IMG/VR virus record: IMGVR_UViG_3300025030_000139
Span: 1-52,898 of that record
DNA: 52,898 nt
From: a virus
Direction: 5' to 3' (one strand)
Below the pieces are notes generated by a model, which did not search any database, had not been told where the DNA came from, and worked only from the letters and a program-made list of their open reading frames with translations. Positions 9,300-52,898 of the stretch are shown one piece after another. Within the stretch, counting starts at the first letter, position 1, and every line of letters starts with the position of its first letter. The position numbers were made by a program, and so were the translations under genes.

Positions 9300-9337
9300 C
9301 TCCCTCTCCCTTTTAGGGAGAGGGCTGGGGTGAGGGT
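9300..9337. repeat. Palindromic element P, copy 3
   Basis: TCCCTCTCCC/GGGAGAGGG arms and GGGGTGAGGG. Fills the gap between the glycosyltransferase stop and the next gene. Confidence 0.85.
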
Positions 9338-10359
9338 TACCCAACCACCCTCAGCAAATCTTCCGCCACGTCGCCCCACGTGCGCCCGCTCAACCACTGC
9401 GCCGCCTCTTTCCCGAACTGCCTGGCCTCGCTCGGATGCTCAATGCACCACCGCATCCTCACGATGCACGCTTCCACGTCCGGTTCCACCCACTCCCCGA
9501 TCGTCCCCGCGTCCCACCAGCCATACGCCGCCGGTGAGAACCTCGTGATCGGGATCGGCAGCGCCCAACGTTCGCAATCGACGGCCAGGCCGCCGTGGTT
9601 GGTTGCGATCACCGGCAGCCCCGTCGCGGCCGCCTCGCGCGGCGGCAGGCCCCACCCCTCGCCGCGCGATGGAAACACAAAACAGTCCGCGCGCGCCAGC
9701 AGCGATCGCCAGGCGTAGCGATCGAGTTTCCCGATCAGCGCCTTCACGTTCTGATCCGCGAACTTCGGATTGCCCGGCAGCGCCTCGCGGAAGTGCAGCA
9801 CCAGCTGCACGTCCGTGCGATCGCCGAACGCCAGCCGGAACGCGCGATACGCCACGTCCCATCCCTTGCGCAGGTCCGGCGTGCCTGACCACACGAACGT
9901 GTACACCTCTTTGTCGATCGCGCGTTCGATCGGGAAGTAATCGTCGAGGTTCAATCCCAACTCGACCACGGCGATCGGCTTTGTGATCCCGTTCGCGCGG
10001 AACATCTCCGCGCACCACTCGCTCGGCGTGACCAATTGGTCGCACCGCCGCTCGATCGCCTCCGCCCAGCCCGCCGGCAGCCGCGTCGCCTCGAACATCG
10101 TGTAGCCGGCCAGCGTCCCCGCGTCGATCAGCGGATACCACCTCGGCACGCACAGCGCCAGCGCCGCGCCGGGCCGCACGTCCCAATACCGCAGATCTTC
10201 CTCGTCCTGTTGGGGCAATCCCTTGCGGTTGCCCTCCGGCGGACGCATATCCATCACGTGAACCTCCGGCTGCAGCGCCCTCAGCGCCCGCCCGATCTCG
10301 ATCGTCGCCTCCCCGTACCCATCCAACGGCTCGAAAAATCCCAAAAATGAGAGCGTCAT
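9337..10359 (-). CDS. GT-B glycosyltransferase (GT4-like)
   Basis: 340 residues. It transfers a sugar from an activated donor to an unknown acceptor. The N-terminal half has FEPLDGYGEATIEIGRAL (glycine-rich acceptor loop). The C-terminal half starts at YTFVWSGTPDLRKGWDVAYR and contains the classic donor-site block DCFVFPSRGEGWGLPPREA with the E-x7-E-like acidic pair, then GLPVIATNHGGL. Complete for a compact GT4 enzyme. It is inserted among head-tail joining and tail genes, an unusual place, and may glycosylate the virion or the cell surface of a lysogen. Confidence 0.88.
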   Translation of the reverse strand: MTLSFLGFFEPLDGYGEATIEIGRALRALQPEVHVMDMRPPEGNRKGLPQQDEEDLRYWDVRPGAALALCVPRWYPLIDAGTLAGYTMFEATRLPAGWAEAIERRCDQLVTPSEWCAEMFRANGITKPIAVVELGLNLDDYFPIERAIDKEVYTFVWSGTPDLRKGWDVAYRAFRLAFGDRTDVQLVLHFREALPGNPKFADQNVKALIGKLDRYAWRSLLARADCFVFPSRGEGWGLPPREAAATGLPVIATNHGGLAVDCERWALPIPITRFSPAAYGWWDAGTIGEWVEPDVEACIVRMRWCIEHPSEARQFGKEAAQWLSGRTWGDVAEDLLRVVG

Positions 10360-18675: not shown

Positions 18676-20436
18676 CTATAATCCCATCTGCTCCGCCGTC
18701 ACCACCACCGCCTTCGCCGTCGCCGTTCCTGCCTTCGCCTCAATCGGAATGTGCTGCGCAACCCGGCAATAATTCTCCGCGTGCGCCAGGTGATCGGGCT
18801 TTCCTTCCTGTTGGATGTAACGCGCGATCTGCACGCCGTTCGGCCCATTCTCGATCACGCGCACCTGCGCCTTCAGGTGGTCGTAATAATCTTTCACATC
18901 CCTGGAATTCGCGGGCAGGGTCGCCGTCTGATCTACGAATTCCGCGAACAGCGCGTCGAGTGTCCGCGTCCGATCGAGATTGACCACGCCATTATCCACG
19001 TCCGGCGCGATCGGCTCGATCAGTTTCGATCCGATCTTCGTCTGGCTGTAATAGGCCAGCCATACCACGCCCGGCGGAAATTCCGCCTGCACCTCGCGCG
19101 CCTTCGTCGTCTCAGGCAGCGCGTCGATGACGCACACCTGCACGTGGAAGCGCTTGATCAGATTCCCTATCTCCTCGAACGAATCGATCGCGCCCGCCCA
19201 GCGCTGCGGCCGCTCGCCCGTCTCCGCGTCGATCGGACCCCGGATAACCACGTGCTTCAACGTCCCCACGTCCACGCCCATCCACGTTTTTTCTTTGGCC
19301 CGCGCGCCGTGCGCGTAATCCCGCCGGCAGGCGTCCAGCACCTCGTCGCTCAATTGCCCGCCGCGCGGCGTGTACGGCTCGGCCAGGTCCTGATTGAAGC
19401 ATTCCTTGCGCTTGGTCTCGTCCACCTCTTGCAGCGTCTGCACCAATTCCAGCAGCTTGATCGCCGGGCTCATGAACTTGGTCACGTGGAATCCGGCGAC
19501 GTGGCCCGCCTGCGTGGCCACCCAGCGCCCCGTCCCCAGCCGATCGATCTCTTTCTGGCATTTCTGGCAGGCGACAAACGCGCGCCCCTCTGCCTGGCCG
19601 TGCCAGTGCACCGGCCGATCCAACTGATCGAACTCCGTCACGATCGAGCGGATCGTCATCACCTGCCATTCGCCGCACGAAGTGCAGCGCACGAACCACT
19701 CGCGCTGGTCGCTGTGCAAATACTCCGCGTGAATGCCGCGCCCCGGATACGTCGGCGTGCTCACCTTGCGCACCTCCGCGATCGCGCTGTGCCCCAATCG
19801 TTTCTCTGCGATCGTGATCGCGCGCGGGTCCATCTCATCCTCTTCGTCGACGATTAACACGTCGGCGTCCACCGTCTTCAATTGATCGGCCAGGCCGCTC
19901 GGATCGACCTGCCCGCCGCGAAAATAAATGAACCGCTTCCGCACGCGCTTCAGCGTCACCCGATCGGCTCCGCGTTTATCGCCGCCCTCCACCACGATGG
20001 CCTTCAGGTAATCACTCGCCTCGAGTGCCGGCCCCACCCGCGCCGATGAGAAATCGCTAATCACTCGATCGGTCGGCATCACGTACAGCACCGTCGCTTG
20101 GCGTTGGTCTGCCGCGTGGAACGCCGTCGAAATCAGATACTCGCTCGCGCCCATCTGGCTTGCCTTGTCGATTACCACCTGCTGCGCCGTGCAGCCGTAA
20201 ATGCCGGCCAGGTACGCATGCTGCCTTAAATCGAACGGCCGCTCAGGAATCAGATTTCTCCGGTGCATGATCGTCCACGCCAGTAGGGGCAGTCCCTTGC
20301 GGCTGCCCACCTGTTGGGACAGTTCCATGTGACTGCCCTTCTCCGCGCGGCTGTCCCTCTGCCGGCTGGCCTTCTCCATCAGGCTGGCCGCGTAGCGCCG
20401 TTTCAAGATTATGGATAAGTCGGTCGAGATCGTCAT
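18676..20436 (-). CDS. terL: Terminase large subunit
   Basis: Up to 586 residues; the start is uncertain. ATG 20436, 20328 and 20268 are all open, and the last (MHRRNLIPERPFDL) fits best with little overlap of the small subunit. ATPase: a deviant Walker A, KASQMGASEY, and a Walker B, DVLIVDEEDEMD. A zinc-binding insert C-x2-C...C-x2-C (RCTSCGEWQ, ACQKCQKE) and a C-terminal RNase H-like nuclease starting at WMGVDVGTLKH resemble lambda GpA-type terminases. This is the motor that packages DNA through the portal. Downstream of the small subunit. Confidence 0.92.
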   Translation of the reverse strand: MTISTDLSIILKRRYAASLMEKASRQRDSRAEKGSHMELSQQVGSRKGLPLLAWTIMHRRNLIPERPFDLRQHAYLAGIYGCTAQQVVIDKASQMGASEYLISTAFHAADQRQATVLYVMPTDRVISDFSSARVGPALEASDYLKAIVVEGGDKRGADRVTLKRVRKRFIYFRGGQVDPSGLADQLKTVDADVLIVDEEDEMDPRAITIAEKRLGHSAIAEVRKVSTPTYPGRGIHAEYLHSDQREWFVRCTSCGEWQVMTIRSIVTEFDQLDRPVHWHGQAEGRAFVACQKCQKEIDRLGTGRWVATQAGHVAGFHVTKFMSPAIKLLELVQTLQEVDETKRKECFNQDLAEPYTPRGGQLSDEVLDACRRDYAHGARAKEKTWMGVDVGTLKHVVIRGPIDAETGERPQRWAGAIDSFEEIGNLIKRFHVQVCVIDALPETTKAREVQAEFPPGVVWLAYYSQTKIGSKLIEPIAPDVDNGVVNLDRTRTLDALFAEFVDQTATLPANSRDVKDYYDHLKAQVRVIENGPNGVQIARYIQQEGKPDHLAHAENYCRVAQHIPIEAKAGTATAKAVVVTAEQMGL

Positions 20437-22075: not shown

Positions 22076-23797
22076 TTATTCAAACAGCGTTCCATTCGCT
22101 CGCAGCCGCTTCCCGTCCCGCACTGCCAACTCCAGCGTGCACAGCCTGCTCATCGCATTATTGATTCCCCCCGTCCCCGGCGCATACCCCGCCCGCTCCG
22201 CCAGGGCGTCCCGCTCGATCTCCGCCGGGTAAATCTCGATCAGCACGTCGAACGCCGCCCGCTCGGCCTTGCTCAGTTTACGCCGCCAGTAATCGATCAA
22301 ATCCTGCCCCGCCGGCAGCGGTTCAACCGGCCCCAGCGCATCCAGTCCATCATCTGTGATTTGCAGGTGCTCCCGGCCGCCGTGGATATACCGTCTGGAT
22401 CGCAGCGCCCCGATCGCATTGTTGAATCCGCCCGTCCCGATCGCATACCCGCTCAAGATCGCCACCTGGTTCAGCGTCCGGCCATCCGGGTACTGCGTCA
22501 GCACCGTCAAGATCGCCCGCTCTGCCCTCGGCAACCTCTCTCCCTCCCCTGTTCGCGCCGTTTGCGAATGGGGGAGGAGCGGGGTGGGGGTGAGGGCCAC
22601 GCCCTTCTCCCTATTAGGGAGAAGGGTTGGGGATGAGGGTCTAATCACCGGGGCTGAGGGTCTAATCTTCGTCGCCGCCTGAACCGCCTCCGTAATCGCC
22701 CGACTCACCCCGATCAACTGGTTCCCCACACCGACCAATTGGTCACTGACCGCCTCCAGCGCCTTGACTTCCCCATCCCGAAATATCGGCACCTCCACCC
22801 GCTCGACGATCGTCTCGATCTTCGGCACGGCTTGCGCCGTCTGAACCGGTCGCGTCGGCGCAGACCGCGCCATCATCTCGCGCTTCAAGCGATGAATCTC
22901 TTTCTGCATCGCCTCGATGGTTCGCACCTCCTCGTCGGCCTGTTTCGGAAGATCGCCGATCTGCGCCACCACCTCGCGGATCTTCTCCGAAGCGCGCGGC
23001 GCTTGTAGCAGGTGTCTCTGCCCGGCCTTGGGATGCGTCGTCTCCACCTCGTCCGATCGGAACCGCACCACCCCGTGCCCGCTCAGCGCCGGGCCGAACG
23101 CGAAGAACTCGCCCGGGTCCAGATCGCGCAGCGCCTGGCGATCGGCCTTGTTCATCCCCAGCAGATCGCCCGCCCGCTGTTGATCCACGTCGAGCCAGGT
23201 ACGCCCAATCACCACATTATTCGACTCCGCCGCGGCATCCTTGTGCAGCTTGCTCAAGCGCTGGGTGGACAGGATTCCCGCAAAGCCCCGCTTCCGGCCC
23301 TGGCTCATCATCGTGATGACGGCCTCGGTGGCCACCGACTCGCCGGCCGCTCTCTCCGGCGCGAACACGTGCGCCTCATCGAGCACCACCAGCAGCGGAT
23401 GCCATAGGTCGCGCCTCACGGTCATCAGCGCTTCCAGGAATCGCTTCACGAACTCGCGACGCTCGTGCAGCTTCAGATCGTACAGATCGACGATCGCGCT
23501 GATGCCGACCTCGCATAGTTTCCGCGCCAGCAGCGCCGCCGATCGCAGGTCCGTGGCCAGCTCGCCCCCCTGCCCCACCAGCGCCATATCCACCTTCTCG
23601 CGCAGCGTCGCAAATTCCCCCTCCGGATCGAGCACGATCGTCTGCACCTTGCCCGCCGTCCGCTCGCACATCAACCTCAGCAGCCAGCTCTTCCCGCCGC
23701 CGCTGTTCGCCTGGATCAGCATCCGCGTATCCACTAGCCGCGCCAGGTCGATTTTGACAGCGCCCTGCTCCGCTTTCCCGATCGTAAATGTCGTCAT
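22076..23797 (-). CDS. HerA/DUF87-type ATPase with C-terminal winged-helix repeats
   Basis: 573 residues from ATG 23797. Walker A ANSGGGKS near residue 30, Walker B-like LLVVLDEAHVFAP near 140-152, and sensor region GFAGILSTQRLSKLHKD followed by NVVIGRTWLDVDQQ. This is the HerA FtsK-superfamily signature, a hexameric DNA translocase associated with end-processing nucleases and with defence systems. A coiled coil (EEVRTIEAMQKEIHRLKREM) follows. Two palindromic elements are inserted in frame (PTLLPNREKG and PLLPHSQTARTGEGE). The C-terminus has two related winged-helix units, each with GTGGxNNAxxxL (GTGGFNNAIGAL and GTGGINNAMSRL). It ends the operon that begins with the PRTRC-like genes. Confidence 0.85.
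   Translation of the reverse strand: MTTFTIGKAEQGAVKIDLARLVDTRMLIQANSGGGKSWLLRLMCERTAGKVQTIVLDPEGEFATLREKVDMALVGQGGELATDLRSAALLARKLCEVGISAIVDLYDLKLHERREFVKRFLEALMTVRRDLWHPLLVVLDEAHVFAPERAAGESVATEAVITMMSQGRKRGFAGILSTQRLSKLHKDAAAESNNVVIGRTWLDVDQQRAGDLLGMNKADRQALRDLDPGEFFAFGPALSGHGVVRFRSDEVETTHPKAGQRHLLQAPRASEKIREVVAQIGDLPKQADEEVRTIEAMQKEIHRLKREMMARSAPTRPVQTAQAVPKIETIVERVEVPIFRDGEVKALEAVSDQLVGVGNQLIGVSRAITEAVQAATKIRPSAPVIRPSSPTLLPNREKGVALTPTPLLPHSQTARTGEGERLPRAERAILTVLTQYPDGRTLNQVAILSGYAIGTGGFNNAIGALRSRRYIHGGREHLQITDDGLDALGPVEPLPAGQDLIDYWRRKLSKAERAAFDVLIEIYPAEIERDALAERAGYAPGTGGINNAMSRLCTLELAVRDGKRLRANGTLFE
22541..22597. repeat. Palindromic element P, copy 5 (long-loop form, in HerA-like gene)
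   Basis: CTCCCTCCCC and GGGGGAGGAG arms separated by an inner TTCGCGCCGTTTGCGAA palindrome; ends GGGGTGAGGG. In frame. Confidence 0.8.
22603..22640. repeat. Palindromic element P, copy 6 (in HerA-like gene)
   Basis: CCCTTCTCCCT/AGGGAGAAGGG arms, then TTGGGGATGAGGG. Adjacent to copy 5, in frame. Confidence 0.85.
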
Positions 23798-23829: not shown

Positions 23830-24297
23830 CTATATCCCGACATACAAATTCGAGAATACATTTCCCACCGCCGGCCCGACCAGCGCTAGAATCACGAGCA
23901 CCGTAATCGTCACCAGCGCCAACAGCAGCGCATACTCCACTACCCCCTGCCCTTCCTCCCCTCGCCCATTGGGAGAAGGATTGGGGGTGAGGGGTAATGC
24001 ATCCGCGTGCACCGTCGCCCACTGCGCCTTCAGATAATACCGGTGTCCATCATGGATCCGCTTCGCCGCCACATTCGGAACCGGCGATGGAAAATCCCGC
24101 GTCACTGTGCCCCATTCCCTCGCGCTGGGCCACGTGCTATCGCGCGAAATCTGTAGGTAGGTTTGCCCGTCCTTCACCATCACGTCCACCCGCAGGCCAT
24201 GCGCCAACGGCTGCCGCTGCGCCTGGCCGGGATGCTCCTCCGCCCGCTTGACCAATTGGTCGAGCGTTCGTGCGAGTCCGTGCTTCTCTTCGCTCAT
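23830..24297 (-). CDS. Fusion of an unknown domain to a Flp-type pilin segment
   Basis: 155 residues from ATG 24297, overlapping the upstream stop (ATGA). Residues 1-100 are an unknown soluble domain (KHGLARTLDQLVKRAEEHPG, VMVKDGQTYLQISRDSTWPS). Residues 101-115 come from a palindromic element (LTPNPSPNGRGEEG). Residues 116-155 match the Flp/Fap pilin core: GQGVVEYALLLALV, with Glu121-Tyr122 after a possible Gly116 cleavage point, a long hydrophobic helix, then LVGPAVGNVFSNLYVGI. In tight-adherence pili such peptides are processed and assembled. A separate pilin gene fused by element insertion would explain the layout. Upstream of the HerA-like ATPase. Confidence 0.7.
   Translation of the reverse strand: MSEEKHGLARTLDQLVKRAEEHPGQAQRQPLAHGLRVDVMVKDGQTYLQISRDSTWPSAREWGTVTRDFPSPVPNVAAKRIHDGHRYYLKAQWATVHADALPLTPNPSPNGRGEEGQGVVEYALLLALVTITVLVILALVGPAVGNVFSNLYVGI
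23951..23994. repeat. Palindromic element P, copy 7 (in pilin fusion gene)
   Basis: Degenerate arms CTTCCTCCCC/GGGAGAAGGA and TTGGGGGTGAGGGG. Forms the linker between the two domains. Confidence 0.75.
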
Positions 24298-24623
24298 AAT
24301 ATACCTCGCTTCAGTATCGCATCGACCCGCATTCCGAAATCTGCCACCCATGCTTCCCATTCCTCGCGCGTCTCGAAAAATGGTGTGTTGCGCCACTCGA
24401 CCAATAAATCGCGCAACTCCGGCGCTGACGTCATCAGCAACGCATTTGCCTTCATTTCCTCCAGCTCGATCACCTGGCTATCGCGTCTCCATGTTCCGCA
24501 GTCCGCGAGCAAGATTTCCTGCTTCATGTCATGGACATTGATCGGAGCGCTGAAAACTCCGATGCATTCTGGCAACCCGATTCTCCACGGCCCCTTCGTT
24601 GTACTGCTCTTGGATTTATTCAT
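24294..24623 (-). CDS. Hypothetical phage protein
   Basis: 109 residues. ATG 24623 overlaps the ThiF stop (ATGA). Contains KANALLMTSAPELRDLLVEW, a motif frequent in small phage proteins of unknown function in which an N-x-L-M-x-A-x-P-E-L helix is conserved. N-terminal half is beta-rich (GPWRIGLPECIGVFSAPINV). Translationally coupled on both sides. No function assigned. Confidence 0.7.
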   Translation of the reverse strand: MNKSKSSTTKGPWRIGLPECIGVFSAPINVHDMKQEILLADCGTWRRDSQVIELEEMKANALLMTSAPELRDLLVEWRNTPFFETREEWEAWVADFGMRVDAILKRGIL

Positions 24624-25567
24624 CCTTCATCCCTCCGCCTGCGTTCCTTCTTCGCCTTTACCTGCATGTCACTAACCGTCAACCCGCACACCTCCGCGAT
24701 CGTCGGCGCATCGATGCTGTACGTCCGCACCCCGCCCCACACCTGGTCGAACGCCACCGCGAAATACCGCAGGTCCCGCGTCACCACGAAATCATGCAGC
24801 ATCGCCAACGCCCACGCCGCCGCTAACCGGTTCACCATCAGCCCCTGCTCCCCCGCCGCCGTCAACTCCGCGCAGCTCTCTCCCCTCTCCTGTGCGCGCT
24901 TTTCCGCACGGGAGAGGGGCCGGGGGTGAGGGCCTTTCACCAAATCCGGCCACACTACGCTCGGCCCCGGCAGCCGATCCACCATCCCCAGCGCGATTGC
25001 ACCGTGCATAGCGCCCTTCTGCGCCACATTCCCGATGCACACCTGCCCGCTGTGGTTTTCATTGCCGCAATCGAGCCACCACAGCGCCCCGTTCGCACTC
25101 TTCACCGCCCGCGCCATCACCACCCGCGCCGCCGCATTATCCACCGCCCCAATCACGATATACAGCTCCCTTCTCCCCTCTCCTCTCCCCTCTCCTACAG
25201 GAGAGGGGCCGGGGGTGAGGTCCAACACATCCACCCTCCTCACCGCGCTCATAATCCTCATCCCGAACGCCGCGTTCAACCTCCCCGCCAGCGCCTCGGC
25301 CTTGTATTCGCCCACGTCGACCAGGCTAAACAACTGCCTCCCCACATTCTTCGGCTCAACCCGATCCGGATCGACGAACAGCATCTCTACCGCCACGCCC
25401 TTCTCCTGCAGCGCCTGCGCGATCGCCGCCAGCCCGCTCGCCATATGGCTCCCCGTCCCGCCGCACCCGACCAGCGTCAGATACACCCGCTTGAAATCCA
25501 CCACGCGCAGCGTCACCGGTGAAGCCGTGGAAGTAAGAAGATTGCTCATGCTTGATTCCATTCCCAT
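24620..25567 (-). CDS. E1/ThiF-family adenylating protein (PRTRC ThiF-like)
   Basis: 315 residues from ATG 25567, placed six bases after AGGAGG. The nucleotide-binding glycine loop reads TLVGCGGTGS (residues 31-40), followed by MLFVDPDRVEPKNVGRQLF, with the acidic residue and Asn/Arg that contact ATP in E1-like enzymes, and VIGAVDNAAARVVM. The C-terminal half has WWLDCGNENHSGQVCIGNV, with cysteines that may act in thioester transfer. Two palindromic elements are inserted in frame (LTPGPSPVGEGRGEG and GPHPRPLSRAEKRAQERGE). The neighbourhood of a JAMM protein, an E2-like protein and a small Gly-ended protein matches PRTRC-type ubiquitin-like systems. Confidence 0.85.
   Translation of the reverse strand: MGMESSMSNLLTSTASPVTLRVVDFKRVYLTLVGCGGTGSHMASGLAAIAQALQEKGVAVEMLFVDPDRVEPKNVGRQLFSLVDVGEYKAEALAGRLNAAFGMRIMSAVRRVDVLDLTPGPSPVGEGRGEGRRELYIVIGAVDNAAARVVMARAVKSANGALWWLDCGNENHSGQVCIGNVAQKGAMHGAIALGMVDRLPGPSVVWPDLVKGPHPRPLSRAEKRAQERGESCAELTAAGEQGLMVNRLAAAWALAMLHDFVVTRDLRYFAVAFDQVWGGVRTYSIDAPTIAEVCGLTVSDMQVKAKKERRRRDEG
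24881..24932. repeat. Palindromic element P, copy 8 (in ThiF-like gene)
   Basis: CCCCTCTCC/GGAGAGGGG arms with a TGTGCGCGCTTTTCCGCACG inner hairpin; in frame. Confidence 0.85.
25173..25221. repeat. Palindromic element P, copy 9 (in ThiF-like gene)
   Basis: CCCCTCTCC occurs twice before TACAGGAGAGGGG, indicating a local duplication of the left arm; in frame. Confidence 0.85.
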
Positions 25568-25577
25568 GACATTCCTC

Positions 25578-26453
25578 CTACTCGTGCGCATAAATGACCG
25601 CGCAATCGTGCCCGCTGAACCCCTGATACTCCGGCCACGTGCTGTGCGCCTCATCCATCGCCGCTTCCAGCGCGTCCTTCTCGTCCGTCGCCGCGATCAT
25701 CATCGCCAGAATCTGCGTATCGCCTGTCTTGTCTTTCGCATACAACGCACACCCCCACATCGGCCCCACGATTAGATCGTCGCTCCCCTCTCCTATAGGA
25801 GAGGGGTCGGGGGTGAGGTCCTCCATCCGATCCACAAACGGCCCCAGTCCCTCAAACACCATGTCCGCCGGCACCTCCATAAAATGCCCGTACACCCCCA
25901 CCCTCACCAATATCTCCGGCCTATCCGTGTCGATCCGCCCGATCACCGCGTAGAACCGCAATCCCTGCTCGTCCCGATCGTCCGTCTCGCTGAAGAATGC
26001 CGCCATGCTATTGTGGCTGTGCAGATCGATCACGCTGTGACCGCGATCGTCGAAATCGACCGCCGTCGGCGACGCTCTCTGTTTCGGCGCCACGCACCGC
26101 CAGGTGCGCATCTCGTCAAACACGAACTGATACATCGCCTCATTCGGCATCCGTTTCTGCGCGCTCGCCAGCACCGACCATAGCCACCGGTCCGACGCCC
26201 GCTCGATCTTCATCCTCACGTCTGGCACAACGATCGCCAGCCCGTTCAATTGCGCCGGCGCAATCTCCACCAGCGCCGTCATCCGCGAATCCTCCGCCCG
26301 GATGAACAGCCCGTTTCCCGCCACCACGTACTGATACATCACCTCCCCGATCGGCGGCAGACTCCCCTCTCCTACAGGAGAGGGGTCGGGGGTGAGGTCT
26401 TCAGCCATGATCACATCACTGATCTTCATAGCATGATCCGCTTCATCGGTCAT
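25578..26453 (-). CDS. JAMM/Mov34-type metallopeptidase (PRTRC protein A-like)
   Basis: 291 residues from ATG 26453, overlapping the end of the upstream gene. The JAB1/MPN metal-site motif is complete: H145-S-H147 and S155-x-x-D158 within VIDLHSHNSMAAFFSETD. JAMM proteins cleave isopeptide bonds of ubiquitin or process ubiquitin-like precursors. Two palindromic elements are in frame, one near the N-terminus (EDLTPDPSPVGEG) and one near residue 222 (EDLTPDPSPIGEG). The start region MTDEADHAMK closely resembles the start of the protein at 27298-28173. Followed by the E1-like gene. Confidence 0.82.
   Translation of the reverse strand: MTDEADHAMKISDVIMAEDLTPDPSPVGEGSLPPIGEVMYQYVVAGNGLFIRAEDSRMTALVEIAPAQLNGLAIVVPDVRMKIERASDRWLWSVLASAQKRMPNEAMYQFVFDEMRTWRCVAPKQRASPTAVDFDDRGHSVIDLHSHNSMAAFFSETDDRDEQGLRFYAVIGRIDTDRPEILVRVGVYGHFMEVPADMVFEGLGPFVDRMEDLTPDPSPIGEGSDDLIVGPMWGCALYAKDKTGDTQILAMMIAATDEKDALEAAMDEAHSTWPEYQGFSGHDCAVIYAHE
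25783..25820. repeat. Palindromic element P, copy 10 (in JAMM gene)
   Basis: CCCCTCTCCTATAGGAGAGG core with GGGGGTGAGG; encodes LTPDPSPIGEG. Confidence 0.88.
26362..26399. repeat. Palindromic element P, copy 11 (in JAMM gene)
   Basis: CCCCTCTCCTACAGGAGAGG core; nearly identical to copy 10 and in the same frame. Confidence 0.88.
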
Positions 26454-27216
26454 CGTCCTCTCCATCCTCACCATATGCCAACTCGTAGGGATCAATCCCG
26501 TCCGCATACGGTTCGAGATTATCGCCCTCCGTCCACTCCCCATCCTCCGCGATCGCGCCCTGCCCCCGCTTCCCGCGGATGAACTCATTCACCGTCACGC
26601 CCGTGGCGACCAATTGGTCAGCCGGAAAAGTGCCCGCCTTCGAGCGCGAGAGTTTCCGCAGAAACGGCAGCAGCTCTCCCGTGCGAATCCTCCCGCCGGA
26701 TAGATCGTGGTTGAACAGGCTCTCGAAGAACAGCGCCACCGCCTGGCCCATCATCTCCGCGCTGGCCGCCGGGAACTGCACATTGCCCGCGCACACCGCC
26801 CCGTTCTCGTGCACGTTCGGCAGCGGCGCTTGATACATCATCTCGCGGCCCGTCGTCGGCCGCTCCGTCAGCGCGAACACGCTGTACTGCGTACCCTGCC
26901 CCACCACCATCAGGCCCGGCAGCGGCGCCGTCAGCGTTTCCACCTCCTCCGTCACCTGCAGGCGGATCGTTCGCCGCGCCGGCGATAGCCACACCCCGAT
27001 GTGCAGCACACCGCCGCGCGACGACCAGAACAGCGTGTCCGGCGGCAGTAGCCCGGTCGATGCGCCGAACTGGTTGAACGCATTGCACACCTCGCCGATC
27101 GCCGCCGGATATGTCAGCGCCGGCGCGCCCGTTCGATCGTGCCGCGTAATCCAGCACGCCTCGTCCGTCAGCGTCACCGTCACGCGCGGGATTCTGTCAT
27201 ATTCCTCGTCAGGCAT
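26443..27216 (-). CDS. E2-like protein (PRTRC protein B-like)
   Basis: 257 residues from ATG 27216; the 22-residue extension to 27282 is repeat-array sequence (RSGKWEMGNGKCEV). The motif PLPNVHENGAVCAGN (residues 131-145) resembles the E2 active-site signature H/P-N-V...G-x-V-C, with Cys142 as candidate thioester acceptor. The preceding part has alternating beta strands (TLFWSSRGGVLHIGVWLSPA, RTIRLQVTEEVETLTAPLPG). It is followed by an acidic C-terminal tail and the JAMM gene. This is the expected neighbour pair in PRTRC systems. The E2 relationship is from memory of the family, not a search. Confidence 0.72.
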   Translation of the reverse strand: MPDEEYDRIPRVTVTLTDEACWITRHDRTGAPALTYPAAIGEVCNAFNQFGASTGLLPPDTLFWSSRGGVLHIGVWLSPARRTIRLQVTEEVETLTAPLPGLMVVGQGTQYSVFALTERPTTGREMMYQAPLPNVHENGAVCAGNVQFPAASAEMMGQAVALFFESLFNHDLSGGRIRTGELLPFLRKLSRSKAGTFPADQLVATGVTVNEFIRGKRGQGAIAEDGEWTEGDNLEPYADGIDPYELAYGEDGEDDDR

Positions 27217-27234
27217 TTGTTTCTGCGCTTTGCA

Positions 27235-27330
27235 TCTCACTTCGCACTTCCCATTTCCCATTTCCCACTTCCCACTTCGCACTTCCCACTTCGCACTTTA
27301 GACACTTCGCACTTTAGACACTTCGCACTT
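27235..27330. repeat. Short iterated array
   Basis: About 96 bp of CACTTCG, CATTTCC, CACTTCC and CACTTTAGA units between the F-like and B-like genes; encodes the last residues of the F-like protein (KKCEVSKVRSV). Confidence 0.9.
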
Positions 27331-28173
27331 CTTTCTCACCAGCATGCTCGCCTTCGCTTCCGCATCCCCGCTCAAAATCCACAGCAGCAGCGGCACGCGC
27401 GGCCGCGGATCGATGTCGATGTAATCAGCCAGCGCCTCGATGCGCTGCCACACCGGTTTCGCGCGTTCCCACTCCCTGGCCAGCGCCCGTATCTCCCCGA
27501 TCGACCACGGCGGATAGCTTCCTCCGCTCTCCATCACGTCCAGGTGCGAATTGTCCAGCCAGAATAGACCCGTATCCATCTGGCAATATCTCACCAGATC
27601 GGGCAGCCCGTTCCACGGCGGCCGCCACACCTGGCCGCGCACCGGCGCAATCGAGGCCGGCTCATAATGCTGCGTATCGAACTCGCGCACCTGGTGCGCG
27701 ATCTTTTTCAGCGCCGGGTAGCATTCGAGTTCCGCGCTGTACGCAGGATTTTCGCGCAGCCGATCCTCGCTCACAAACCACTCCACCGCCGCAAACGCCG
27801 CGTGCCGATCATCACGATCCCGCTCGTCATAGTCGCGGCCGTATAAATTGACCGGAATCCCAAACTCGCCCGCTTCGTACATCGCATCCCAGCCGGGCGC
27901 GTCGTCAGGATCCTCGAACCACGGCTCGAACACCGGGAACAGCGTGCTAAGATAATTCAGCAATCCATAATAGGCCGCCATCCGCCCGCGCGCGTGCTCC
28001 ACCGGCCACGCCGGATCGAGCCGCGCCAGCAGCCGCGCAAAGCGATTGCAGCGCATATCCGCCTGGCGCAGCAGCCACGAACAGCGCACCGCCGTTTTGG
28101 GTAATGCAATCGTCGCAAACTTCATAGCATGACCCGCTTTATCGGTCATAGCATGACCCGCTTTATCGGTCAT
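27298..28173 (-). CDS. PRTRC protein F-like
   Basis: 291 residues. The first ATG (28173) overlaps the upstream stop; two more ATGs follow in a 24-bp duplicated start region (28149 and 28125, the last giving MKFATIALPK). Distinctive segment: RPPWNGLPDLVRYCQMDTGL, then FWLDNSHLDVMESGG and SYPPWSIGEIRALAREWERA. Its P-x-x-G-L-x-D-L-x-x-Y...D-T-G-x-x-x-L-D order is what I associate with PRTRC protein F. Biochemical role unknown. The C-terminus is array-derived. Operon position between the C/E-like and B/A/ThiF-like genes supports the call. Confidence 0.65.
   Translation of the reverse strand: MTDKAGHAMTDKAGHAMKFATIALPKTAVRCSWLLRQADMRCNRFARLLARLDPAWPVEHARGRMAAYYGLLNYLSTLFPVFEPWFEDPDDAPGWDAMYEAGEFGIPVNLYGRDYDERDRDDRHAAFAAVEWFVSEDRLRENPAYSAELECYPALKKIAHQVREFDTQHYEPASIAPVRGQVWRPPWNGLPDLVRYCQMDTGLFWLDNSHLDVMESGGSYPPWSIGEIRALAREWERAKPVWQRIEALADYIDIDPRPRVPLLLWILSGDAEAKASMLVRKKCEVSKVRSV
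28125..28173. repeat. 24-bp tandem duplication of a start region
   Basis: Minus strand ATGACCGATAAAGCGGGTCA-TGCT occurs twice in a row, each copy offering an ATG. A single related copy forms the start of the JAMM gene at 26453-26430. Confidence 0.85.
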
Positions 28174-28376
28174 AGCACCGTTCCCCGTTGTGTCAGCGCC
28201 GGCACATCCGCCAGCTGCTCCCGGATATTCTTCACCTGCACGATGCTCTTCTGCATCGAGAGCATGTCGTGCTCCAATGCCGCCAACCGCTTCCCGCGCA
28301 GCGTCCCCATCGCCGCATCTTCCACGCTGCGCGGCGCCAACCTCCCCCGCTTCACAGCCAGCAGTCGAATAATCAC
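28170..28376 (-). CDS. Small coiled-coil protein of the PRTRC-like operon
   Basis: 68 residues from GTG 28376, whose ribosome site (AGGGAGAGGGAG) is supplied by the adjacent palindromic element. The longer frame to 28463 runs through that element and is doubtful. Basic N-terminus (IIRLLAVKRGRLAPRS) and a heptad-like helix (KRLAALEHDMLSMQKSIVQV). Its stop overlaps the next ATG (ATGA). Unknown function. Confidence 0.6.
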   Translation of the reverse strand: MIIRLLAVKRGRLAPRSVEDAAMGTLRGKRLAALEHDMLSMQKSIVQVKNIREQLADVPALTQRGTVL

Positions 28377-28377
28377 A

Positions 28378-28412
28378 CTCCCTCTCCCTTTGGGAGAGGG
28401 TTGGGGTGAGGT
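28378..28412. repeat. Palindromic element P, copy 12
   Basis: CCCTCTCCC/GGGAGAGGG arms, then TTGGGGTGAGG. Sits between the C-like gene and the small coiled-coil gene, supplying the latter's ribosome site. Confidence 0.85.
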
Positions 28413-28413
28413 T

Positions 28414-28596
28414 TTACCCCTTTCGGCCCGCCTTCTTCGTGAACGTGTACGTGACGTCGCCATTCTTCGCTTCCTTCTTATCCACCTGCGGATCCGCCAG
28501 CTCCGGGAAGTGCCGCGCCATCAACTGCTTCGCCTGCTCCAGCGTCAACTCCCCCATGTCCAACTCGCGATCGCCATACTTGATTTTGTTAGCCAT
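28414..28596 (-). CDS. Ubiquitin-like protein candidate (PRTRC protein C-like)
   Basis: 60 residues from ATG 28596, overlapping the upstream gene by 8 nt. Pattern: beta strand (KIKYGDRELD), helix (LTLEQAKQLMARHFPELADP), beta strands (DVTYTFTKK) and a C-terminal AGRKG tail ending in Gly. This is the length and layout I recall for PRTRC protein C, regarded as a beta-grasp-like small protein. The terminal Gly is the expected attachment point if it is conjugated by the E1- and E2-like proteins downstream. Mechanism inferred. Confidence 0.65.
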   Translation of the reverse strand: MANKIKYGDRELDMGELTLEQAKQLMARHFPELADPQVDKKEAKNGDVTYTFTKKAGRKG

Positions 28597-29122
28597 CGTC
28601 CACCTCGTCGCCGTCATCATCTCGCTTGTGCGGCAGACTGGCATCCATCTCTCTCGCCGCCTCAAGACTCAGATCGAACGCATCGTCAATCCGTTTATCC
28701 GCTGCCTCGTCCGTTGCCGCAATCTCAGGCAAGCTAATGTCACTTATCTCCGCAGCGACATCGTCCCCCTCGATCGCCGGCAGCTCCTCCCCCTCTCCCT
28801 TAAAGGGTTCATCCTTATCCGGCTCTCGATTACCAGGCTCTTCCTCGTCTGCGTCGGCCGTGATGCTCTTCGAATTGCCGGTCATCATATCTTTCACCGT
28901 CACCACCTGCGGATCGCGCCGGAGCACCGCCGCATACGCCCGATCCATCAGCGCATGCCGATCGGAAAATGCCCCCGTCAGCACCACCGGCATCTCGCCT
29001 TCCGGCGCCGCACTGATCACCAGCCGCCGCACCCCCTTCTTCGGCGGCAGAATCGTCGTGATGATCGTCAGCGCCTTCTCGTCTGGCTTCTGACTGCTGG
29101 CGACTGACTTCTTCTTACTCAT
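28589..29122 (-). CDS. PRTRC protein E-like
   Basis: 177 residues; ATG 29122 overlaps the upstream stop (ATGA). Residues 15-80 form the only folded-looking part: ALTIITTILPPKKGVRRLVI and GEMPVVLTGAFSDRHALMDR, recalling the P-L-x-L-x-G-T-P-x-E-x-D segment of PRTRC protein E. The rest is strongly acidic and probably disordered (DADEEEPGNREPDKDEPFKG). Translationally coupled to the C-like gene. Assignment is mainly by context. Confidence 0.5.
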   Translation of the reverse strand: MSKKKSVASSQKPDEKALTIITTILPPKKGVRRLVISAAPEGEMPVVLTGAFSDRHALMDRAYAAVLRRDPQVVTVKDMMTGNSKSITADADEEEPGNREPDKDEPFKGEGEELPAIEGDDVAAEISDISLPEIAATDEAADKRIDDAFDLSLEAAREMDASLPHKRDDDGDEVDDG

Positions 29123-29805
29123 TCCGCCACCTCCAGGATGCATCCGCACATCTCGCAGAACTCCGCGTCCGCGCTCAAAATCGCCGCCCCGCACTCCGGG
29201 CACGCCCGCACGTCCACTGCGATCACCCCCACCATCACCAGCGCGTTGCAGTCCTCAGCCCCGCAGTGCCACCCGTCTGGAAGATGCAGATACGTGTCAG
29301 GCGTTCGCTTGCACTTCGGACACATATCACTCAATGTCGGCATCTTCGGCTTCGGCGGCTCTTTCGTCTGCTCAAACATCTGCTTCGTCTGCGGCTTCAC
29401 CTTGTCGACCACTTCCTGAATCTTCTCTGCCGTCGCCGTGGCCACCGACTGTCCGGCCTTCTTCAGACGCTCGTTCACCCGCTCGATCAACTTCGGATCG
29501 TGCGCCACCTCGCGCAGCACCCGCGCCGCCGCCTCGTTCCGCGGCCGCTCGCCGACGGCCTTCTCTACCTTCTTCGCCGTCTCTGCCGCCGCGATCATCC
29601 GGTACCCGTTCCGCTCGCTGAACCCAAACGTCTTCGCGCAATACTCGTCGAACGTCTTGCACTCGCGCAGCCGGAACCCGTTCCGGGCCTTGATCTCCGC
29701 GAGCGCGTTGCCCACCGCGACGAAACTGTCCAGGCCCCGCCGCACCTGGCCTTCCAGTTCCGTCAATCGCTTCTCAGTCATCGTAATCGCCGTTTCATCA
29801 CTCAT
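29119..29805 (-). CDS. DNA-binding-like protein with zinc ribbons (ParB/DUF3102-like)
   Basis: 228 residues from ATG 29805. N-terminal helical region: EGQVRRGLDSFVAVGNALAE, followed by FDEYCAKTFGFSERNGYRMI, like the KorB/DUF3102 helix-turn-helix of plasmid and phage proteins. C-terminal half carries two zinc-ribbon-like pairs: CPKCKRT...WHCGAEDC and CPECGAAI...EFCEMCGC. PRTRC cassettes include a ParB-family gene at this position; whether this is that gene is uncertain. First gene of the coupled operon that ends with the HerA-like ATPase. Confidence 0.65.
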   Translation of the reverse strand: MSDETAITMTEKRLTELEGQVRRGLDSFVAVGNALAEIKARNGFRLRECKTFDEYCAKTFGFSERNGYRMIAAAETAKKVEKAVGERPRNEAAARVLREVAHDPKLIERVNERLKKAGQSVATATAEKIQEVVDKVKPQTKQMFEQTKEPPKPKMPTLSDMCPKCKRTPDTYLHLPDGWHCGAEDCNALVMVGVIAVDVRACPECGAAILSADAEFCEMCGCILEVAE

Positions 29806-29839
29806 CGCAGTTCCCCTTTCCGAGATTTCGTTTGCCAGC

Positions 29840-29870
29840 TCACTTCCCACTTCCCACTTTAGTCACTTCC
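29840..29870. repeat. Short iterated array
   Basis: CACTTCC and CACTTTAGT units encoding the last residues (VTKVGSGK) of the upstream small gene. Confidence 0.8.
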
Positions 29871-30064
29871 ATATCCTCCATCAACAGCGCCATCTTGAAC
29901 AACAACTCCAGCGCCCCGTTCGTCGAAATCCGCACCGTCGGACACAGCCATTTCAACCCGTTCGCCAGGTGATCCGCCTCTTCGATCAGCATCTTCCGCT
30001 CCTCCGGCGTAAACACCTCCAGAACATCCCCCCACTTCGAATTCACCTCGGATCGAATCGTCAT
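29840..30064 (-). CDS. Small hypothetical protein next to the origin candidate
   Basis: 74 residues from ATG 30064; the longer frame to 30166 would read through the iteron region and is not favoured. Predicted helical (FTPEERKMLIEEADHLANGL), acidic N-terminal half; C-terminus from the repeat array. Unknown function. Confidence 0.6.
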   Translation of the reverse strand: MTIRSEVNSKWGDVLEVFTPEERKMLIEEADHLANGLKWLCPTVRISTNGALELLFKMALLMEDMEVTKVGSGK

Positions 30065-30080
30065 TTGCAAATTCCTGTTA

Positions 30081-30254
30081 TGTCGATTACAGAAGTTACA
30101 GAAGTTACAGGTAATATCTAGAGGTCGATCACTTCTGAAATGCAGAAAAACGCATAAGTCAATCAAAACACGTTACAATAAACTCATCGAACTATCTGTA
30201 ACGACCTGTAACGGGTGTAACTTCTGGAACTTCTGTAACTTCTGTAACCGACAT
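30081..30254. other. Inverted iteron region, replication-origin candidate
   Basis: Left arm (30081-30110) has three GTTACAG-type units (ACAGAAGTTACAGAAGTTAC). The right arm (30216-30254) carries the same in inverse orientation (ACTTCTGTAACTTCTGTAAC, then CGACATAA), with additional CTGTAACG units at 30196-30215. The arms are inverted repeats of about 33 nt with two mismatches. The interval is clearly AT-richer than the surroundings (AAAAACGCATAAGTCAATCA). It is located directly downstream of the helicase gene. Iterons flanking an AT-rich core next to a replicative helicase suggest an origin; an operator is the alternative. Confidence 0.6.
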
Positions 30255-30261
30255 AAAAGAA

Positions 30262-31716
30262 TCATTCCATCAGCTCATACCACACATTGCCGCCCTCTCT
30301 TGCCTCTCTCACCAACCCGCTCGCAACCAGATCGCTCAATCTCTCGTGCGTGTGGCTTTTTGGCTGCCGGACGTAGTCCGCGATCGTCTGCAGCATCGCC
30401 CGTTTCAATTTCTCGACAGCCTCGAGCACTTCCTGCCGGCGCTGGGTCATCCGCAGCCCGGCCCCGTCGCCCTCGTAATTCCACAACCCAAATTCCTTAT
30501 CAAAGTTCAGCAGCAGCGTCGCCTCGTCGATGTCGCGCCCGGTGATGTTCAGCGTCGCCCCCATCTTTCCCCTCTCTCGAAACAACCCCCACATCACATC
30601 GGAGACCGCTGCCTTCGCCACCGATCCATATACATCCCCGATCGCGTCGCCGCTCTCCTGGTTTGTCGCCTTGCTCTGGTGATCGATGAACATCACGCAC
30701 GCATTCTGCGTTTGAGCCAGGCTTTGCAGCGCCGCCAGTGCTTTCGTGATCGCCCCGGCGTCATTGCTCTCACTGCTCCGCATGTGCATCCCGATCGCCT
30801 TGCTGAACGTGTCCACCACCACCAGCGCATACCCGTGCGCCTCAATCAGATATGCAATCCGTTCGGCCCCGCCTTCCAGTAGGCTGCCGAACTCCCGTAT
30901 AAACGCCTCGAACAACACAAAATCGATCGGCGTATCATGCGGCCACATCTGCCGATTGGCCCGGCTCTTCAACCGGCGTGGATGATCCTCCAGCGCGAAA
31001 TATAACACCCGTCCCGGATCGATCTTCTTGTCGAACACGCGCCCGCCCGTCGCTTTCGCGCACGCCACCTGCATCATCAGCCAACTCTTGCCGCTCTTCG
31101 GCTTCCCGTGCAGAAACCCCATCCCCGACGGCAGCATCTCCGGCACAATCCACACCGGCTCGGCCCACTCCGTGCGCAGCACGTCCCTGGCCGGCATGAT
31201 GCTCGACTCGCTGCTCAATCGCGCGATCGCCGCGTACCGCAGCGCCGTCAACCGGTTGCTGATCTCGCTCAGGCTCACGATCTCGTCGTCCGCCTCCGCA
31301 TAAGCCAGCTGCGCCGCATCGCTCAGAATCGCCAGCAGCCCCCGCCGCACGCTCAATCGCTTCACGGCCTTGGCGTAGCCATCCGCGTTGATGGCCGTCG
31401 GCGTCGCATTAAGCAAGCCCGAGATGTAGGCCGGGCCGCCCGCCTCGTCAATCTGTCCGCGTGCCGTCAATTCCCGGACCAGCGTCACAAAATCAATCGG
31501 CTCCTGCCGGTCGCGCATTGCCAGGCATGCCTCAAATACCCATCCGTTCTTCTCGATGAAAAAATCCGGTGGCGCGCACACCCGCGCCACCCGCTCCAGC
31601 GCCTCCGGATCGATCAAAATCGATCCCAACACCGCCTCTTCGGCTTCAACCGAATACGGCGGCATCCGCTCCACCACCTGTGTCCCAAATACCTGCTTCA
31701 CCAGGCTATCGCCCAT
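30262..31716 (-). CDS. Chimeric replicative helicase: DnaB N-domain plus RepA/AAA_25 ATPase and winged helix
   Basis: 484 residues. Residues 15-115 match the DnaB N-terminal domain (MPPYSVEAEEAVLGSILIDP, then DEAGGPAYISGLLNATPT). The ATPase is not a DnaB core. It has Walker A GKPKSGKS at 204-211, then GRVLYFALEDHPRRLKSR, Walker B-like YALVVVDTFSKA near 295, and CVMFIDHQSK, which together fit the RepA/AAA_25 family of hexameric plasmid helicases. The C-terminus is a winged helix (QTIADYVRQPKSHTHERLSD, LVASGLVREA). Expected to unwind DNA at replication initiation. ATG 31716 is preceded by GAGGTCGTGAGCG. The iteron region follows it. Confidence 0.82.
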   Translation of the reverse strand: MGDSLVKQVFGTQVVERMPPYSVEAEEAVLGSILIDPEALERVARVCAPPDFFIEKNGWVFEACLAMRDRQEPIDFVTLVRELTARGQIDEAGGPAYISGLLNATPTAINADGYAKAVKRLSVRRGLLAILSDAAQLAYAEADDEIVSLSEISNRLTALRYAAIARLSSESSIMPARDVLRTEWAEPVWIVPEMLPSGMGFLHGKPKSGKSWLMMQVACAKATGGRVFDKKIDPGRVLYFALEDHPRRLKSRANRQMWPHDTPIDFVLFEAFIREFGSLLEGGAERIAYLIEAHGYALVVVDTFSKAIGMHMRSSESNDAGAITKALAALQSLAQTQNACVMFIDHQSKATNQESGDAIGDVYGSVAKAAVSDVMWGLFRERGKMGATLNITGRDIDEATLLLNFDKEFGLWNYEGDGAGLRMTQRRQEVLEAVEKLKRAMLQTIADYVRQPKSHTHERLSDLVASGLVREAREGGNVWYELME

Positions 31717-52599: not shown

Positions 52600-52898
52600 A
52601 GCAGCTCGTACCTCGGCGTGATCGTCACGCGCGTATAGTTCATCGTCTTCGTCAGCGAGAAAGCCTCGCCGATCTCACCCCGCGCCGTCAGCCAGAGATT
52701 GATGCGGTCCGGTTCTGCTTCGATTAGTGCACCTGTTGAACTCAAAAATTCTGTCAGCGTAAATCCAAAATCTGTCTCCCCGCGCGTGACGGCCCGCATC
52801 CCTTCCAGCACGATCGTTCCTCCGATTCCGCCCGACGGGGATTCGATCTTGAGCGACGGCACGCCGCCGATCAATAGGTAGTCTACCGTCACGTTCGC
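52596..52898 (-). CDS. C-terminal end of the LamG tail protein (continuation across the circle junction)
   Basis: Open to the right edge in the same frame as 1-2279. Bases 52747-52898 duplicate the window start, so the unique part is 52746-52596. It ends TGA 52598-52596, overlapping the hub ATG. Beta-rich end: RINLWLTARGEIGEAFSLTK. Confidence 0.85.
   Translation of the reverse strand, partial: ANVTVDYLLIGGVPSLKIESPSGGIGGTIVLEGMRAVTRGETDFGFTLTEFLSSTGALIEAEPDRINLWLTARGEIGEAFSLTKTMNYTRVTITPRYELL
52747..52898. repeat. Direct terminal overlap, right copy
   Basis: Repeat of 1-152; see that entry. One mismatch at 52772. Confidence 0.95.

Follow-up and report, generated by a model that had tools for sequence, protein, structure and literature searches.

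The viral DNA analysed here, the whole 52,898-nt stretch of IMG/VR record IMGVR_UViG_3300025030_000139 (hereafter the window), carries a gene cassette of the PRTRC type that we read as a working, phage-owned ubiquitin-like conjugation system, with DNA-handling proteins as its most likely targets; we put the probability of this explanation as a whole at about 0.65. A preliminary description of the window had picked out ubiquitin-like, E2, JAMM and E1 motifs and proposed a PRTRC-type ubiquitin-like module. All four motifs are present, at or near the positions given there, and the profiles TIGR03735-03738, Prok-E2_D, Prok-JAB and ThiF match the cassette, bearing out the assignment. Because only ThiF exceeds its NCBI equivalog cut-off, with A, B and C falling below theirs, the cassette is, on profile scores, a divergent PRTRC. 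Read from the sequence, the catalytic residues of the E1, E2 and JAMM proteins are intact and the modifier ends in Gly, and we consider it very probable that the cassette is a functional ubiquitin-like conjugation system.

Enzymes and modifier of the cassette

The E1-like protein ThiF scored 147.1 bits against TIGR03736 (cut-off 144.75). The E2-like protein B reached 82 bits against Prok-E2_D (cut-off 25; E = 5e-23) and 75.6 bits against TIGR03737 (cut-off 131.45; E = 4e-21), and its true start may be internal to the called open reading frame (ORF). For the JAMM peptidase A the scores were 78.4 bits against TIGR03735 (cut-off 101.8; E = 5e-22) and 31.3 bits against Prok-JAB, the latter above cut-off. 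Counted from alignment columns of the viral copies, the P-loop Gly, Arg and Lys of the E1 are conserved in 81/81 and its Asp and Cys in 82/82, the E2 Cys in 77/77, and the JAMM His, His, Ser and Asp in 75/75. The His that follows the E2 Cys in the 2006 description of operon type 6d had no fixed column in the viral copies (38/78), and sequence profiles of A, B and C compared with PDB gave nothing meaningful.

Protein C, the putative modifier, scored 34.9 bits against TIGR03738 (cut-off 45.95; E = 1.2e-8), its C-terminal part aligning through the final model position, and 24.4 bits against Prok_Ub (cut-off 25; E = 2.6e-5). Its Lys-Gly is invariant across 50 aligned copies. An overlap of the C start codon with the E stop codon suggests that the two genes are translationally coupled. 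The predicted structure, beta-beta-alpha-beta-beta with a loose C-terminus (predicted local distance difference test, pLDDT, 75), has the topology that would be expected of a beta-grasp modifier.

C-terminal tails and the JAMM protein

In most copies of C the frame runs beyond the Lys-Gly into a tail that differs from locus to locus. We scored this feature in 125 loci with C, B and ThiF, some of them closely related, of which 116 had a recognizable A and 114 of these were scorable. Where A was present, C carried a tail of more than five residues in 101/114 loci and no tail in 7/114; where A was absent, C ended exactly at the Lys-Gly in 9/9. On the E1 tree these nine loci trace to four independent losses of A, and in independent pairs both traits change together in 3.9 of 4 on average, with none changing in the opposite direction. 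It is likely that A matures C, acting as its maturation protease, because C is tailless in all loci that lack A; the pattern is a strong one, its statistics provisional. In the window C is tailless although A is present, so that A there would act mainly on conjugates. Two PRTRC loci of Candidatus Chloroploca (L108 and L119) lack the JAMM protein, with B adjoining ThiF and C tailless, and are useful natural controls for the maturation hypothesis.

Distribution among phages and plasmids

The preliminary description had regarded a phage copy coupled to a HerA-like ATPase and a pilin-like protein as a new setting. Uniqueness of the phage-borne cassette is not supported, since no fewer than 80 contigs of IMG/VR, and a cultured phage, have PRTRC. 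A scan of IMG/VR for close relatives returned six loci, and a relaxed, alignment-based scan returned 103, from which we retained 80. Profiles built here detected all four of C, B, A and ThiF in 68 of 86 loci (mostly viral contigs). The order C-(F)-B-A-ThiF on one strand is nearly always kept, being that of most of the 80 viral contigs and likewise that of the window. Matches to portal PF04860, terminase PF03237 or terminase PF05876 came from at least 43 of these 80 contigs, a lower bound, as some contigs were screened with fewer than all three Pfam models.

Among 50,697 sequenced phage records, the full set of E, C, F, B, A and ThiF over NCBI cut-offs was found in Burkholderia phage BgVeeders33 (OK665841), a cultured tailed phage with a 33-kb genome, in the order E-C-F-B-A-ThiF at 25952-30438; partial matches came from the uncultured phage fragment MT835919. 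The BgVeeders33 annotation calls five of the six cassette proteins hypothetical and ThiF a 'dinucleotide-utilizing enzyme', and shows neither ParB nor D. On plasmids, the ThiF query matched 183 records, both conjugative and non-conjugative. Judged from gene content and order, phage-borne PRTRC is thus a recurrent, strictly conserved module of tailed phages, many rather than one oddity. In the open-access literature on PRTRC, which comprised plasmid and genome papers, the cassette was not found described in phages (subscription papers lay outside the search); the phage-borne form is new, the predicted PRTRC system itself being already known.

The phage genome that carries the cassette

The window is most simply a complete phage genome of about 52.75 kb, because its ends share a 152-nt direct terminal repeat (1-152 and 52747-52898; 151/152 identical) and a 649-residue open frame continues through the junction of the joined ends. 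The IMG/VR label for the record, linear, missed this repeat. The placement of the module within a temperate phage is upheld by the genome's completeness and its gene content: besides the terminase, the window encodes portal, head protease, major tail protein and tape measure, together with two tyrosine integrases and a repressor-like helix-turn-helix (HTH) gene. In transcription order the cassette comes after the DnaB-type helicase and before the terminase; on the minus strand the HerA-like ATPase is followed by the terminase and then the head and tail genes.

A sister phage contig in IMG/VR (L002/G001) shares the structural genes of the window, mostly at 40-52% identity, and also has its cassette (ThiF 64%, C 78% identity). 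The cassette therefore appears to have been retained while the two phages diverged. A glycosyltransferase gene (9337-10359) sits within the head-tail module, and its L002 counterpart, at the matching place, is 50% identical. The phrog_675 terminase was sought in six relatives and none matched, their terminases being different. Among bacterial genomes, the relatives nearest to the window E1 were metagenome-assembled genomes (MAGs) of Chloroflexota, and a Chloroflexota host is suggested for the phage; the Chloroflexi MAG contig L102 has the zinc-ribbon protein, E, C, B, A, ThiF and HerA ordered as in the window.

Gene order, accessory genes and repeats

The transcription order, on the minus strand, is DnaB-type helicase, zinc-ribbon protein, E-like protein, C, a small ORF, F-like protein, B, A, ThiF, two small ORFs and HerA-like ATPase (Table 1).

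Table 1. Features of the cassette and its surroundings in the window.
Feature	Position	Strand	Basis
Terminase large subunit, GpA type	18676..20436	-	PF05876 E = 2e-29; phrog_675 E = 2e-99
HerA-like ATPase, downstream of ThiF	22076..23797	-	PF01935 E = 2.8e-11
Small ORF adjoining ThiF stop	24294..24623	-	ORF overlap
ThiF-family E1-like adenylating enzyme (PRTRC_ThiF)	24620..25567	-	TIGR03736; P-loop GCGGTGS; Cys232 in SCAE
Protein A, JAMM peptidase, HSHx7SxxD	25578..26453	-	TIGR03735, Prok-JAB
Protein B, E2-like, putative active-site Cys164 (ORF numbering)	26443..27282	-	Prok-E2_D, TIGR03737, motif PNVHENGAVC
F-like protein	27298..28173	-	Position; homologous to the F proteins of L002-L005
Small ORF between C and F, start uncertain	28170..28463	-	ORF call; stop overlaps F start; no homologue recognized
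Protein C, 60-aa ubiquitin-like modifier, ends AGRKG, no tail	28414..28596	-	TIGR03738, Prok_Ub
E-like protein	28589..29203	-	Homologous to same-position protein in L002, L003, L004, L102
DNA-binding-like protein, C-terminal zinc ribbons, at ParB/DUF3102 position	29119..29850	-	Zinc ribbon E = 1e-4, below cut-off
DnaB-type replicative helicase, upstream of cassette	30262..31716	-	PF00772 E = 2.9e-30

The E-like and F-like proteins of the preliminary description stand by position and by chains of homology through related loci, but neither window protein has a direct profile match, TIGR03741 and TIGR03742 included. The structure model of the F-like protein is mostly helical and, at pLDDT 52.6, was unusable for a fold search. 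The protein named there as ParB/DUF3102-like has no DUF3102 match of its own, although a distant homologue matches DUF3102; Pfam profiles gave no ParB match for this zinc-ribbon protein, which is 42-71% identical across four relatives. Pfam also gave no match for the small ORF adjoining the ThiF stop. An actin-like D gene was not recognized in the window; an actin/ParM-like D adjoins ThiF in L004. The proposed linkage to HerA was corroborated, as HerA also lies downstream of the cassette, at most ~8 kb from ThiF, in three close relatives, namely L003, L004 and L102 (two viral contigs and one Chloroflexi MAG contig). In the sister phage ThiF is immediately followed by a RuvB-like AAA ATPase (L002:11030-12199) in place of the HerA of the window. 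A 36-nt inverted repeat (92%; 30075-30110 / 30224-30259) separates the DnaB-type helicase from the cassette operon and may serve in regulation or as an origin.

Two kinds of repeat are scattered through the window. A 42-nt palindromic REP-like repeat occurs at 13 places, e.g. 24894-24935, 25183-25224, 25781-25822, 26360-26401 and 28376-28417; copies inside ThiF and A are translated in frame, giving peptides such as LTPDPSPVGEG, and the copy at 28376-28417 contains the C stop codon, directly after the Lys-Gly. Heptanucleotide repeats (CACTTCG, CACTTCC, CACTTTA) fill many gene junctions of the phage (e.g. 18527-18654, 27209-27348, 34738-34857, 36788-36926 and 38222-38386) and were not found in the related loci checked; neither repeat type reached two copies in related loci that might have assigned a host. 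The pilin-like protein of the preliminary description found no Pfam support: the stretch concerned (23830-23952, GQGVVEYALLLAL...), which ends an ORF and comes just behind a REP-like copy, lies outside the segment matched in L002, where the upstream part of the ORF is conserved. It is probably a chance fusion and incidental.

Neighbouring genes and proposed mechanism

In about 50 viral loci, the proteins immediately upstream of the cassette (114 in all) drew Pfam assignments of ParB HTH 16 times, PRTRC_E 12 times and ParB_N 11 times, with scattered DnaA, DnaB, polymerase clamp and single-stranded DNA-binding protein; downstream of viral loci, DnaA_N was commonest (5/110). Within the clade of the window the cassette adjoins HerA, RuvB-like or actin/ParM-like genes, as described above. 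With ParB, DnaA, HerA and RuvB-like genes as its neighbours, the cassette seems more likely to serve in DNA replication or partition than in defence of the Bil kind; we propose a replication or partition role tentatively, at somewhat less than an even chance, and it would also fit plasmids.

We infer every chemical step of the mechanism, and its target, as follows. A would cut C precursors after the conserved Lys-Gly, except that in the phage of the window C would be made already mature and A would mainly remove C from targets. ThiF would adenylate the C-terminal Gly of C, with the thioester probably on Cys232, and C would then move to Cys164 of B, which would join it to target amines. Choosing or presenting the targets may be the task of the E-like, F-like and zinc-ribbon proteins. 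The likeliest targets are proteins of phage or host that handle DNA, such as the helicase, a ParB-type protein or the HerA/RuvB ATPase, and tagging would control replication or partition of the phage DNA.

Several points weigh against this explanation. The neighbourhood names no target and is weak evidence: replication genes abound in the early regions of phages anyway, so that the association may be positional. Biochemistry of the PRTRC cassette was not found in the literature searched. The association of tail absence with absence of A has a Fisher p of 9e-10 that is not corrected for kinship, whereas the kinship-corrected sign test gave p = 0.125, four pairs being too few for significance. 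Lastly, the structure model of C, for which a beta-grasp fold had been foreseen, drew no significant structure match: the best Foldseek E was 0.39, protein G B1 and ubiquitin-like domains occurring among the non-significant matches.

Alternative explanations

The foremost alternative, which we judge unlikely, is superinfection exclusion or defence, the prophage tagging proteins of competing phages as reported for Bil systems. The enzyme classes are common to Bil, Bub and CBASS Cap2/Cap3, and HerA-like proteins occur in defence systems too. PADLOC E1-E2 models give a weak match to the window E1, as does Citrobacter BubCD in PDB to the E1 family profile. However, PADLOC models gave no match for A, B or C, the neighbours are replication and partition genes rather than defence genes, and the cassette sits on many plasmids, conjugative or not, without a known defence phenotype.

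A role in anti-defence, with the cassette modifying or unmodifying host defence proteins during infection (for instance the JAMM protein acting on host conjugates), seems to us improbable. Host Bil systems employ such conjugates. So does host CBASS (PMC10097602), and the JAMM motif is strictly conserved wherever present; but removal alone needs no full set of E1, E2 and modifier, and it is the JAMM protein that four lineages have lost while keeping the conjugation genes. Sulfur transfer, in which ThiF and C would act like ThiF/ThiS or MoeB/MoaD rather than in tagging, fits the ThiF family membership and is nonetheless very unlikely, given a dedicated E2 with an invariant Cys and a JAMM protein in nearly all copies; thiamine or molybdopterin genes were not found among the first 25 neighbour families listed. 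That the cassette is non-viral, through misassembly or host or plasmid DNA beside a prophage, has a negligible probability: PRTRC is best known from plasmids and IMG/VR contigs can be misclassified, but the window closes with the cassette internal, L002 holds structural genes and cassette together, no fewer than 43 of the 80 further viral contigs match portal or terminase models, and BgVeeders33 refutes this origin for the class.

Comparison with known systems

Bil and Bub systems include a modifier protein. With these and with CBASS Cap2/Cap3 (PMC10097602) the cassette has the E1, E2 and JAB enzyme classes in common; it differs in its separate PRTRC-type E1 and E2, its extra E and F, and the failure of A, B and C to match PADLOC models. 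PRTRC-type cassettes were predicted to be ubiquitin-like systems, operon type 6d, by Iyer et al. (2006; PMC1779556), and no assigned function for them was found in the literature searched. The window resembles plasmid PRTRC (TIGR03735-TIGR03742; type 6d) in its ubiquitin-like C, JAB protein A, E1 ThiF, E2 B, helical F and gene order. In contrast to the plasmid form, it lies inside a complete phage, lacks a recognized actin-like D, has a zinc-ribbon protein at the ParB position and HerA downstream, and its A, B and C are under NCBI cut-offs. BgVeeders33 likewise has a complete E-C-F-B-A-ThiF set in a tailed phage, but its proteins are all above the cut-offs, its C bears a 62-residue tail, its structural genes are annotated as Mu-like and no HerA is annotated beside its cassette. 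For lambda-type tail proteins, JAB cleavage at the terminal Gly of a ubiquitin-like protein was proposed in 2006 (PMC1779556). The lambda tail assembly proteins I and K offer a phage-encoded ubiquitin-like and JAB pair with predicted terminal-Gly cleavage, described without E1 or E2, whereas the window has a full cascade in a replication region.

Implications

A broader claim, on which we would place a little less confidence still than on the replication or partition role itself, is that a ubiquitin pathway of eukaryotic style (precursor, maturation protease, E1 and E2) is widespread among tailed phages and dedicated to replication or partition of their DNA, perhaps by labelling replisome or segregation proteins of the phage itself. 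If true, this would be a phage-encoded analogue of regulatory ubiquitin tagging on DNA-handling proteins. The tail/JAMM regularity supplies a precise biochemical prediction for the first step, and the cultured 33-kb phage a small genetic system in which deletion of the cassette can be scored, so that a long-unexplained bacterial protein-tagging system becomes testable in a phage.

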